The notes below the pieces were generated by a model. That model saw only the letters and a program-made list of their open reading frames with translations. It was not told the origin of the DNA and searched no databases. A stretch of DNA of 64,000 nucleotides from Marinobacter nitratireducens (lineage in GTDB: Bacteria > Pseudomonadota > Gammaproteobacteria > Pseudomonadales > Oleiphilaceae), in contig NZ_ANIE01000005.1 in NCBI RefSeq assembly GCF_000708045.1, positions 124,001-188,000 of the forward strand, in the 5' to 3' direction. The position numbers and the translations under genes are program-made. Every line of letters starts with the position of its first letter. The first letter of the stretch is position 1. Shown here in pieces: positions 40,551 through 55,428 of the stretch.

Positions 40551-41474
40551 CTATTGCAGCCGGAGTTCTTTGAGTATGACTGTGCGGGGCCTGGGCAAAT
40601 GGGTAGCGAACAGCCCCAGGCGTCGAATCCGGCCCATATCCATGTCCCGGCTTTCCGGGGCTTCGCGGATTGTGTCCAGAGGAATGACAAACCGGTTGTC
40701 GCCTGTGGCGAGTAGTAGGCGCTGATTGAACCGGTCGGAATAGCGGTTGTTATCTTCATGGGCGACGTCGTGAATGCGGATGGTCATTTGCAGCGGGGCC
40801 TGCTCCGGGTTATACAGGCTCAGGATCAGTTGCTGATAGTCCCGCCAGTCGCCGGCAAGGTTTTGCAGCGTTGCCCCCGAGTATGTTTCGGTGCCCATGT
40901 GGATGGATAGCCCGCCGGAGGCGTCATCCACTTTCGATACCTGCCCACGCCAGAACAGGGAAGGATCGCTGCGGGTAAAATCGTAAAGTTGGGGGAGTTG
41001 CTGATGCACCTGAAACTGTTGCAAGGCGACTGTTGCTGTTGAGGCCAGCTCCAGGGCCGCCAGTAAGGCGGTAGACAGTTTCAGAACTCTGCCACCTGCT
41101 GGCGTTGGTCTGCTGGGAAACCAGGCCAGAACCAGCCACATACCGATCAGGTTGCGGAGCACATCGTGCCAATCCATGTCCCGTCCCAGTCCGGACTGGA
41201 TTGTTTCTATTGCAAGCCCAAGGGCCAGTAGTATCGCCGTGGGGGCAAACCAGAGCCGCCAGCCCCGGAACCAGCGCCAGGGCTGAATACCGAGAGTGAA
41301 GAGCGCGAAAAGGCCAATGTGGCCGAGGTTCCAGACGGATCGAAGTAATGGGCCGGAGGAGTAGTCCGGGCCGCCGATGAAGAGCAGCGGGGTAATCAGG
41401 AAGGCGCCCAACAGGGCCAGCGAGCGCAGTCGCTGTCTTGTTTGGGCGCCTTTTGTCGCCGTGCTGGCGAGCAT
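40551..41474 (-). CDS. VanZ family membrane protein
   Basis: A 307-residue protein. The N-terminal half has about five hydrophobic helices with the VanZ-like motif DWHDVLRNLIGMWLVL. The C-terminal half is a soluble beta-rich domain (FWRGQVSKVDDASGGLSIHM, LSLYNPEQAPLQMTIRIHD) reminiscent of a carbohydrate-binding jelly-roll. Function is unknown in Gram-negative bacteria. It overlaps the PpiC gene's stop by 1 nt, so it is translated after ppiC. Confidence 0.82.
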   Translation of the reverse strand: MLASTATKGAQTRQRLRSLALLGAFLITPLLFIGGPDYSSGPLLRSVWNLGHIGLFALFTLGIQPWRWFRGWRLWFAPTAILLALGLAIETIQSGLGRDMDWHDVLRNLIGMWLVLAWFPSRPTPAGGRVLKLSTALLAALELASTATVALQQFQVHQQLPQLYDFTRSDPSLFWRGQVSKVDDASGGLSIHMGTETYSGATLQNLAGDWRDYQQLILSLYNPEQAPLQMTIRIHDVAHEDNNRYSDRFNQRLLLATGDNRFVIPLDTIREAPESRDMDMGRIRRLGLFATHLPRPRTVILKELRLQ

Positions 41475-41752
41475 CAGCTACGGCTGGTGACTTCCAGCAA
41501 GTGGTAGCCGAATTGGGTCTGGATAGGACCAATCACGGTGTTCAGGTCGCTGCTGAACACGGCCTTGTCGAACTCGGGAACCATCTGGCCCGGGCCGAAA
41601 GAACCGAGGTCACCGCCGTTGCGGCCAGACGGGCAGGAGGAATGCTGCTTGGCAACTTCAGCGAAGTCCTGACCGCCTTCGATGGCTTTTTTCAGTTCTT
41701 CGCACTTGGCTTCGCTGTCCACCAGGATGTGGCGTGCTGTTGCTTGAGTCAT
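41474..41752 (-). CDS. ppiC: Parvulin-type peptidyl-prolyl isomerase PpiC
   Basis: A 92-residue single-domain parvulin. It contains the family motifs ARHILVDSEAKCEELKKAIEGG and NGGDLGSFGPGQMVPEFDKAVF, and ends TQFGYHLLEVTSR. There is no signal peptide, so it acts in the cytoplasm as a folding catalyst. It starts the ppiC-vanZ pair on the minus strand, divergent from the DUF1415 gene across the palindromic element. Confidence 0.94.
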   Translation of the reverse strand: MTQATARHILVDSEAKCEELKKAIEGGQDFAEVAKQHSSCPSGRNGGDLGSFGPGQMVPEFDKAVFSSDLNTVIGPIQTQFGYHLLEVTSRS

Positions 41753-42065
41753 GGTTCTGTTCCCATTGTTGGTTGGTAATTACTTCTGGGGAGAATGCTG
41801 CCCTGACAGGGCTGTGTAGGCAAGTGCTTTTTGTCTGCTGTCTCAATTCCGGTTGGTTCCCTGTAGTATGTTGGGCCTGCACCTGTGAGCTTGGCTTTGG
41901 GTGCGGTGAGAGTGCGGGTCGCCAGCTCAAAAAAACGCTCCTGGCGGCACATCCTTGTGGCGCTTGGGCTTCGCCATCCATGGCTTCGCACATTTTTTGA
42001 GCTGGCGACCCGCACTCTCAGGCACGCTTTGGAGTTGCCTTCCACTGGGTTACAGGAGACATCGT
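41753..42065. other. 313-bp gap holding a long palindromic element
   Basis: The gap between the ppiC start and the DUF1415 start has no convincing coding sequence. Short frames in it come only from the palindrome. It contains the element described separately at 41907-42020 and the ribosome site AGGAG before the TTG at 42066. Promoters for both neighbours should lie here too. Confidence 0.7.
41907..42020. repeat. Palindromic structured element, copy 1
   Basis: Arms 41907-41934 and 41993-42020 are perfect 28-nt reverse complements (the inner ends are an A-tract and a T-tract). The 58-nt loop starts ACGCT and ends CGCACA and contains two small hairpins, CACA-TCCT-TGTG and GCCAT-CC-ATGGC. The loop closely matches that of the element at 54465-54577, but the arms are unrelated. 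It lies between divergent genes, so it cannot be acting only as a terminator. Confidence 0.85.
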
Positions 42066-42617
42066 TTGGAGAATGTTCTGGTCGTTGAGTCGACGCGTAA
42101 ATGGGTCGAGGACGTTGTGGTCGGCTACAACCTGTGTCCGTTCGCCAAACGGGAACTGGTCAGAAACCGGGTGCGCTTTGTGGTTTCGGAGGCCACAACC
42201 GAAGACGAGTTGCTTCGGGATCTGCATGCCGAATTGCACCGCCTCGATGACGAGCCTGAGATCGAAACCACGTTGCTGATCCATCCGCATGCGTTAACGG
42301 ACTTCGGCGCGTACAACGACTTTCTGGACGCAGCCGATGGCCTGCTGGCGTTTCTGGAGATGGATGGTATTTATCAGATTGCCAGTTTCCACCCGGACTA
42401 CCAGTTTGAGGGCACGGACCCGGAGGCGGCGGAGAATTACACCAACCGTTCGCCGTTTCCTATGCTGCACCTGTTGCGGGAGGCCAGTCTGGAAGCGGCG
42501 ATTGAAAACTATCCGGACATTGATGCCGTGCCGGCCCGGAACATCGAGTTGATGAATGATCTGGGCGCGGAGAGGATGCGGGCACTTCTTGCCAGTTGCA
42601 TGCTGGGCAAACAATAA
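42066..42617 (+). CDS. DUF1415 family protein
   Basis: A 183-residue cytoplasmic protein of the DUF1415 family, recognised by RKWVEDVVVGYNLCPFAKRE near the N-terminus and the C-terminal NYTNRSPFPMLHLLREASLE. I start it at a TTG (42066) because AGGAG lies 7 nt before it and the family N-terminus begins there; an earlier in-frame ATG (41955) is inside the palindrome. Function is unknown. Downstream genes (methyltransferase-like, sirtuin) follow at short spacing. Confidence 0.85.
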   Translation: MENVLVVESTRKWVEDVVVGYNLCPFAKRELVRNRVRFVVSEATTEDELLRDLHAELHRLDDEPEIETTLLIHPHALTDFGAYNDFLDAADGLLAFLEMDGIYQIASFHPDYQFEGTDPEAAENYTNRSPFPMLHLLREASLEAAIENYPDIDAVPARNIELMNDLGAERMRALLASCMLGKQ

Positions 42618-54464: not shown

Positions 54465-54577
54465 GGCCGGGGCGGGGGAAGGGACTCCCCAAAAACGCTG
54501 TGAATACGTCCGTGTACGCTTGGCTCCGCCATCCATGGCTCCGCACATTTTGGGGAGTCCCTTCCCCCGCCCCGGCC
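54465..54577. repeat. Palindromic structured element, copy 2
   Basis: Arms 54465-54494 and 54548-54577 are perfect 30-nt reverse complements, very GC-rich with an inner A4/T4 tract. The 53-nt loop starts ACGCT and ends CGCACA, with small hairpins TACG-TCCG-TGTA and GCCAT-CC-ATGGC, like copy 1 at 41907-42020. It lies between two convergent gene ends (54448 and 54592), so it might also act as a terminator. Confidence 0.87.
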
Positions 54578-54591
54578 GTCTGGTCAGCACC

Positions 54592-55356
54592 TCAATCCTC
54601 AGTCATGGGGTTTGGGTTGAGCAGCGCCAGGTCTCCTATTCCAGGCAATTTGATACCAAGGGCCATCGGGTTTAGTCCAATCGACAGCCCCAGAAGATTT
54701 AGTTCAAGCCCCTCTTTGACCCCAGCCATCAGTCCGAAATAGCCACCCAGAGAAAGCTGGTAGCCGGCGCCTCCTGGCACTTCGGCCACCACGCTGTCAC
54801 CGAGGTAGTCTTTGCCAATGGCATGGCCGGGGAGTGCGATATCAAGTCCCGGAACTTCCTTGATCACCCAGGCCGTGAACGTATTGCTGTTCGGTCCCGG
54901 CCAGGCTTCGTAGGTTGTCGCGTAAGGATAGCTGGCAACGGCATCGTAAATCCGGGGAATCAGCGCCTCAGCTTCCGGGCCACGGATATCGGCATACAGT
55001 TCCGGTCGGGCGCCATACCAGTGGCGATCAGGTTCGCCCGGTTGGGAATTGACCACGTATCGGCGCCATCCGGTCACCTCATGCACGCGATACTCCTCGG
55101 CGCCTTTTTCCTTGGTGGCAAGCCAGGTGTGAACCGCAAAATAACCGCGCCAGCCCCAGGTTCTCGCACCGTAGACCTGTACCACCGCGCCCTCGTATTG
55201 CTCTGGTCGTGGGGCAATGCCCGCGCTTTCCCGGCTGGCGGTTCGCCAGCTCTCGGCGCCCTGCAGTTGGCCGCTGACGGCAAGAAGCAGTGGGCCAGCC
55301 ATCAGTACGAGTAGGCCGAGCAAAGGCCAGCGCGCGTATCGGAATGCTTTCTTCAT
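54592..55356 (-). CDS. DUF3750 family protein
   Basis: A 254-residue protein with an N-terminal hydrophobic helix (WPLLGLLVLMAGPLLLAVSG) that is a signal or anchor. The soluble part (VVQVYGARTWGWRGYFAVHT; ATTYEAWPGPNSNTFTAWVI) matches DUF3750, of unknown function and perhaps hydrolase-like. I use the ATG at 55356 (MKKAFRYARWP); an in-frame ATG at 55407 would add 17 residues and has no spaced ribosome site. It is divergent from the dodecin gene. Confidence 0.8.
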   Translation of the reverse strand: MKKAFRYARWPLLGLLVLMAGPLLLAVSGQLQGAESWRTASRESAGIAPRPEQYEGAVVQVYGARTWGWRGYFAVHTWLATKEKGAEEYRVHEVTGWRRYVVNSQPGEPDRHWYGARPELYADIRGPEAEALIPRIYDAVASYPYATTYEAWPGPNSNTFTAWVIKEVPGLDIALPGHAIGKDYLGDSVVAEVPGGAGYQLSLGGYFGLMAGVKEGLELNLLGLSIGLNPMALGIKLPGIGDLALLNPNPMTED

Positions 55357-55428
55357 TGGTGGTTTGCCCGTCGTCTGGTTGTCTTCTAGGCTCAGAATAT
55401 CAGGCATCTCCGAAAAAGGAGTATTACC

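Follow-up and report, generated by a model that had tools for sequence, protein, structure and literature searches.

Dispersed palindromes in Marinobacter as structured RNA elements of the TwoAYGGAY type with putative docking sites for the regulator CsrA

Judged by sequence comparison, the palindrome studied here (copy 1 in Table 1), which lies in a 64,000-nt stretch of the Marinobacter nitratireducens genome that was analyzed as a whole (the window), represents a structured RNA element of the TwoAYGGAY type, here encoded on the minus strand, of which the genome has about 70 dispersed copies and which probably offers docking sites to the global regulator CsrA. In the reading that we prefer, to which we give a probability of roughly 0.57, the minus-strand RNA would carry CsrA-binding GGA loops and its many copies would titrate CsrA or tether it.

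An inverted-repeat search of the window (exact seed of 11, arms at most 160 nt apart) returned copies 1 and 2 as the two longest inverted repeats, with exact arms of 28 and 30 bp, the third being 12 bp long. Given the base composition, the expected number of 28-bp arm pairs in 64 kb is about 3e-10. The original prediction had described two long perfect palindromes sharing a conserved core in the same orientation, and this can be seen on both sequences, the cores being nearly identical and the orientation identical. It had also held that the outer arms are unrelated between the copies, which stands insofar as the stems are private but has to be softened, since a loose 5' arm consensus, ending in ..CTTTCCAAAAC or A, is discernible over 221 stems. 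Copy 2 is located just past the 3' end of the DUF3750 gene, with gene and RNA on the same strand.

Table 1. Positions within the window of the two palindromes, their parts and the neighboring genes.
Feature	Position	Strand	Remarks
Copy 1, whole element	41907..42020	(-), selected RNA sense	model match G000:C5:165911-166016:-, 105.2 bits
Copy 1 outer stem, RNA 3' arm	41907..41934	(-)	exact 28-bp inverted repeat, 58 nt between the arms
Copy 1 outer stem, RNA 5' arm	41993..42020	(-)	exact 28-bp inverted repeat
Copy 1 hairpin 2	41973..41984	(-)	RNA GCCAUGGAUGGC, loop C-AUGGAU-G, predicted CsrA-type site
Copy 1 hairpin 1	41948..41959	(-)	RNA CACAAGGAUGUG, loop C-AAGGAU-G, predicted CsrA-type site
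Copy 2, whole element	54465..54577	(-), minus-strand RNA	53-nt-loop subtype; model match G000:C5:178471-178571:-, 105.7 bits
Copy 2 outer stem, both arms	54465..54494 and 54548..54577		exact 30-bp arms, 53 nt between them
Copy 2 hairpin 2	54528..54539	(-)	RNA GCCAUGGAUGGC
Copy 2 hairpin 1	54505..54516	(-)	RNA UACACGGACGUA
DUF1415 gene (PF07209)	42066..42617	(+)	flanked by elements at fixed positions, on one side or both, in most Marinobacter examined
PpiC-type peptidyl-prolyl isomerase gene	41474..41752	(-)	left neighbor of copy 1
DUF3750 gene (PF12570)	54592..55407	(-)	right neighbor of copy 2

The two palindromes belong to a large family. With up to three mismatches, the core motif occurs 41 times in the window's own genome and not once in the reversed control, and it is present in 25 of 38 relatives, namely, the own genome and all 24 other Marinobacter, and in none of the 13 others of the order. 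Among 369 genomes drawn from the class, which included no other Marinobacter, only the own genome has it. A collection scan gave at least 80 stretches among the matches listed (80 of 116), every one titled Marinobacter. A covariance model (R1) finds 72 matches in the own genome, two of which are in the window and two of which are weak (42 and 34.5 bits, the latter partial). In 15 other Marinobacter genomes, it finds from 3 to at least 145 per genome, high counts being possible lower bounds as at most 150 candidates were scored in each. Outside the genus, two other families of the order gave 19 and 26 matches, and five further genomes of the order gave none. Many of the weaker matches represent a second subfamily with a different core. 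Copies that overlap a predicted gene are few (2 of 36 in the own genome and 4 of 85 in named loci) and were excluded from the counts of gene context. Neither an absence of further copies nor noncomplementary stems, which the original prediction had named as refuting outcomes, was found; the own genome and the relatives searched instead hold the structured family that it had envisaged, with many, mostly intergenic copies, a conserved core and a covarying stem.

Covariation supports a common fold. In an alignment of 79 nonredundant copies in RNA sense (A1), hand-picked from 130 of 140 nonredundant copies and having arms of at least 24 and loops of 53, 54, 57 or 58 nt, 99.2% of the cells are paired, a percentage that is high by choice because long stems were selected for this alignment and for A2 below, such stems being present in 228 of 255 motif copies (the 27 dropped had a stem score below 17, some of them with long loops beyond the span of the stem finder). 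Double changes occur at 25 of the 35 stem pairs, and the covariation score is 0.714, compared with 0.168 after shuffling and no more than 0.141 when the partners are slid. In this fold, a long outer stem closes a junction with two small hairpins, each with a C-ANGGAN-G loop. That the external stem encloses both hairpins, on the GGA strand, is indicated by fold prediction, by the covariation in A1 and by the wobble bias described below. The closing stem of hairpin 1 covaries as well (CAC/GUG, UAC/GUA, CCC/GGG). Selection would preserve this fold together with the GGA loops but leave the letters of the stem free to drift, provided that a change in one arm is matched in the other. In long-loop copies (L073, L085, L090, L094, L095 and L018), extra small hairpins take the place of hairpin 1 or extend it, and the loops of those measured are 135 to 138 nt long. 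In many copies, the 3' side of the RNA stem is followed after about 3 nt by a C-rich consensus close to CWCCRAAG, with a similar but weaker one before the stem. A likeness to integron attC sites (GTTRRRY-like flanks), suggested by eye, was dropped. The flank motifs near CWCCRAAG on both sides are a weak family consensus rather than per-copy repeats.

The strand can be read from the arm mismatches. After removal of seven copies with repeated arms from the 228, the 221 distinct stems contain 170 arm mismatches, which on the strand originally read are 113 A.C/C.A, 9 G.T/T.G and 48 others, counted with a stem finder that penalized every mismatch equally. As these 113 would be G.U wobbles in an RNA of the opposite strand alone, the minus-strand RNA appears to be the selected molecule. 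The bias is seen in the own genome alone (26 reverse-strand versus 2 forward), in all four gene contexts (39:4, 20:3, 20:1 and 13:0, summing to 92 versus 8) and in model-found copies (17:3 and 53:13), for which the model itself favors G.U. The original prediction needs one correction here, as wobble bias and matches to the Rfam model RF01731 both point to the minus strand as the selected one. We regard this as a clean case of assigning a strand to an otherwise symmetric palindrome. Together, these comparisons establish the fold, the strand and the loop conservation of the family at the level of sequence.

The wobble bias also weighs on two further readings. The element might be a functionless, neutral palindrome that owes its perfect arms to repair of one arm from the other or to template switching, and exact arms without mismatch in 107 of the 228 copies are what such repair would give. 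However, repair should be symmetric between the strands, which the 113:9 bias is not, and it does not explain why the GGA of hairpin 1 is kept in 79 of 79 copies, so we hold this to be the least probable reading, close to negligible. Since arm-to-arm repair should be symmetric, the bias argues for selection on one strand, probably as RNA and less likely as single-stranded DNA. Alternatively, the hairpin could serve as a bidirectional transcription terminator or insulator, as suggested by the long G+C-rich stems in short intergenic spaces, including those of convergent gene pairs. Such a strand-symmetric function is, however, incompatible with the same bias; copies are found between divergent genes as well as between convergent ones, the A/T tracts adjoin the loop rather than follow the stem, and a T-run within 60 nt downstream is rare, being found for 4.7% of 171 copies on the RNA strand and 8.8% on the other. 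A terminator or insulator is therefore very unlikely. An own promoter combined with a terminator was dropped as a candidate, in the absence of an excess of T-runs or of sigma70-like promoter scores (3.41 upstream versus 3.59 on the other side, p 0.43).

Syntenic sites were tabulated for the best 30 of 57 DUF1415 loci and the best 30 of 44 genomes for DUF3750. Of the 30 species examined for DUF1415, 27 have an element before the gene, all in one orientation, and 19 have one after it, all in the opposite orientation. The own genome differs at this site by its left neighbor (the PpiC-type gene, on the other strand) and by a stem unlike those of the other species. Among many species, the upstream stems are related, some being identical, with compensatory changes. 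In an alignment of 22 copies before DUF1415 (A2; 22 of 25 well-paired upstream sites, three long-loop sites being left out), 97.3% of the cells are paired, again high by choice, double changes affect 24 of 38 pairs, and the covariation score is 0.456 versus 0.121 when shuffled. Two loci, L071 and L073, have the same stem with loops of 57 versus 138 nt. Because the stems at fixed sites are related and the loop types differ, the comparison speaks for long retention of copies with compensatory stem drift, and for exchange of the core between copies. A rebuilding of the stem on insertion, which the original prediction had offered as one explanation, is not needed, since different species retain copies at the same fixed sites and the stems of these are compensated, and it was set aside: the syntenic stems stay related between species, and no target duplication was found, the mean best identity of within-copy direct repeats at the flanks being 5.75 of 8 positions versus 5.72 permuted (sd 0.07, 162 copies). 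In the own genome, none of the 496 pairs among 32 copies share a stem 16-mer, which fits old copies with drifting stems and, taken alone, rebuilt stems too.

Beside the DUF3750 gene, an element is present in 15 of the 30 species, in one orientation in 7 and in the other in 8. These downstream sites (L100-L129) have partly similar stems and both orientations of the core, as if the core had flipped between the arms. At another locus (L098), the site after DUF1415 has a bare 10-bp palindrome, GCCGGTGGGT-T-ACCCACCGGC, at a position that in related species is occupied by a complete element sharing its stem base; a deletion of the core is the probable cause.

The main structural rival is a mobile element of single-stranded DNA, a palindrome akin to REPINs in which the folding strand that is excised would be selected and divergent pairs would be the mobile unit. 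The copies are dispersed, and their arrangement follows a rule. In RNA sense, every close pair (gap below 300 bp) is divergent, which holds for 9 of 9 pairs in the own genome and for 11 of 11 in named Marinobacter loci. With random orientation and independent pairs, the probability of this would be about 1e-12, although orthologous pairs may recur across two species. The gaps are 57 to 193 bp long (e.g., in G000:C5:244556-244834 and L174:6407-6744). As this divergent-pair rule also suits a mobile doublet, we shifted the odds by one point toward mobility. A genome-specific core variant spread over sites, CTTCG, also suits this reading, accounting for 31% of 32 own copies versus 2% of 110 others. 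This variant equally fits the exchange of cores between copies, as does the observation that the nearest neighbors of own cores are own copies more often than by chance (0.38 versus 0.22, with 8 of 500 permutations as high). G.T pairs are tolerated in DNA too. On the other hand, mobility is at odds with the missing target duplication in 162 copies; with the nine own pairs, which differ in stems and gaps (the gaps of the six that were read are unlike); with the 496 own copy pairs, in which no common stem 16-mer betrays a recent copy; and with a fold kept at fixed sites across species. Copy 2 gave no blastn match in 72,556 plasmid and 50,697 phage records, on account of which carriage by plasmids or phages was dropped. 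Overall, we view a mobile DNA element as improbable, and selection as RNA remains our preferred interpretation.

The main functional rival is a role in untranslated regions that is independent of CsrA, in which a REP-like hairpin in 3' UTRs or intergenic RNA would shield or process mRNA ends, the GGA loops being structural or serving another protein. The stems are predicted to be very stable (-78.5 to -85.6 kcal/mol, flanks included), and of the 113 copies that have two known neighbors and overlap no gene, 69 have a co-directional gene on the 5' side of the RNA (p 0.024). This downstream bias is weak, with 23:11 in the own genome (p 0.058) and 46:33 elsewhere (p 0.18), all p-values being too small as related copies were not fully collapsed, and the context itself coming from a simple codon-score gene finder. 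The remaining 44 of the 113 face a gene start. Moreover, the RNA is antisense to both neighbors in 42 of 168 de-duplicated copies, so a plain UTR role is insufficient; at the site before DUF1415, this is the case in all but one of the 27 species with an element there (26 of 27). Finally, the loops obey the CsrA rule position by position, with a free base followed by an invariant GGA. We consider such a role unlikely, if the most serious of the alternatives.

This brings us to the loops, on which the CsrA reading is founded. On the minus strand, both hairpins have C-ANGGAN-G loops, which is the form of a CsrA/RsmA site. In A1, GGA is fixed in 79 of 79 copies in both loops, and the A two bases upstream in 79 and 77 of 79; part of hairpin 2 was set by the motif used for the search, and the model also prefers GGA, while hairpin 1 lies outside the motif. 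In hairpin 1, the base before the invariant GGA is free (A5 C11 G25 U37) and the base after it is almost always a pyrimidine (U40 C37 G2). Two CANGGANG loops are kept in 128 of 135 model-found copies, the other seven being without two such loops, and under a stricter pattern the second loop is absent in 11 of 228 copies. According to a review (PMC7652899), the SELEX consensus of CsrA is RUACARGGAUGU, and the protein bridges sites 10 to 63 nt apart, best when more than 18. Copies 1 and 2 conform to this rule, with GGA in hairpin loops, the ANGGA context and a spacing within 10 to 63 nt, the stretch between the two GGA motifs, counted on the sequence, being 22 nt in copy 1 and 20 nt in copy 2. 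A GGA pair 20 to 22 nt apart would be within reach of a single CsrA/RsmA dimer. The csrA gene was found in 23 of 23 genomes searched, the own genome among them. Two of these genomes (G008 and G030) have three CsrA-family matches each, and the other 21 have one each.

We infer that the elements are transcribed, bound by CsrA and able to titrate it. Transcribed copies, mostly downstream of a co-directional gene or pointing outward from divergent pairs, would bind CsrA, and the element RNAs would jointly titrate it or tether it locally. More tentatively, and with odds that we place below even, the family could amount to a distributed CsrA reservoir, with up to about 145 or more dispersed RNAs per Marinobacter genome, each with two high-consensus sites and a fast-evolving paired stem, often paired divergently, and conservation would extend to copies whose RNA is antisense to the genes on either side. 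If this is true, a repeat family would do the work of the sponge for which other gammaproteobacteria use one to a few sRNA genes. If CsrA binds, repeats would join in the titration of a global regulator, most of whose sites would then escape a count based on canonical sponge sRNAs. In the open-licence literature searched, we recognized no report of a multi-copy CsrA-binding repeat, or of this repeat in Marinobacter.

Among known systems, REP, BIME and REPIN sequences resemble the element in being short, dispersed, intergenic and palindromic, with doublets of fixed orientation. However, REP stems are alike between copies, whereas those of the element are private and covarying, with strand-specific wobble. 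Sponge sRNAs of the CsrB/RsmZ type (RF00018, RF00166) have in common with it several GGA hairpin loops at the spacing of a CsrA dimer. Those sRNAs are single genes with a promoter and a terminator, in contrast to the element, with its many dispersed copies for which neither was detected. The two sponge models, which may be too narrow for Marinobacter, found nothing above cut-off in any of the 23 genomes and had no match at all in the own genome, the RF00166 controls yielding no true positive over the cut-off. In a genome of the same order without R1 matches (G031), two loci (L297 and L298) have overlapping CsrB-like RF00018 matches of 55 and 52 bits (cut-off 71).

The closest relative is TwoAYGGAY (Rfam RF01731, clan CL00106), a candidate RNA described in 2010 by Weinberg (PMC2864571), for which binding by CsrA has already been proposed from motif matches (PMC4333381). 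The original prediction, which knew of no named repeat family that fits, was wrong on this point. Although Rfam at gathering threshold gives no match in the whole window, RF01731 under permissive settings has a minus-strand match to copy 1 that scores 33.8 bits (gathering cut-off 43). Its best scores in two sets of 20 own loci, 41.6 and 38.2 bits, are below the cut-off as well, but two copies among 18 loci of other Marinobacter pass it (45.6 and 44.3 bits), and all matches in Marinobacter loci are on the RNA-sense strand. In the 369 genomes of the class, RF01731 has matches in 24, above the cut-off in 15, several being at the maximum of 7 set by the number of candidates scored per genome; 14 control genomes gave none. 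In other genera, four of the RF01731 loci (L262, L266, L267 and L272) have the same plan of a long outer stem and two hairpins, four (L256, L259, L260 and L261) have a second loop without GGA, and four (L265, L270, L273 and L275) have an outer stem of at most 16 bp according to the stem finder. Rfam microRNA matches to element loci were rejected as long-hairpin artifacts with scores far below their cut-offs. One locus (L012:1770-2052, minus strand) matches RF02514 (5' ureB sRNA) with 108 bits (cut-off 40), perhaps because of a urease coding sequence or its antisense.

TwoAYGGAY and the element are alike in strand, in their two A-N-GGA hairpins and in the poorly conserved external stem around them. 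They differ in length, RF01731 matches spanning 116 to 143 nt against 168 model positions, and in the base before GGA, which in the element is G or A rather than Y in 11 of 79 copies (hairpin 2) and 30 of 79 (hairpin 1); hairpin 1 of copy 1, for instance, reads AAGGAU. The TwoAYGGAY literature consulted makes no mention of 3 to 145 copies per Marinobacter genome or of divergent pairing. We take the element to be a high-copy, largely unannotated variant of this known RNA family, of which most Marinobacter searched have dozens to more than 100 copies per genome. A thinly described Rfam candidate thereby becomes an abundant, testable system with an assigned strand, strong covariation and a named candidate partner. 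The kind of RNA was already known as a candidate; what is added here is its abundance, the evidence for its strand, its compensated private stems and its arrangement.
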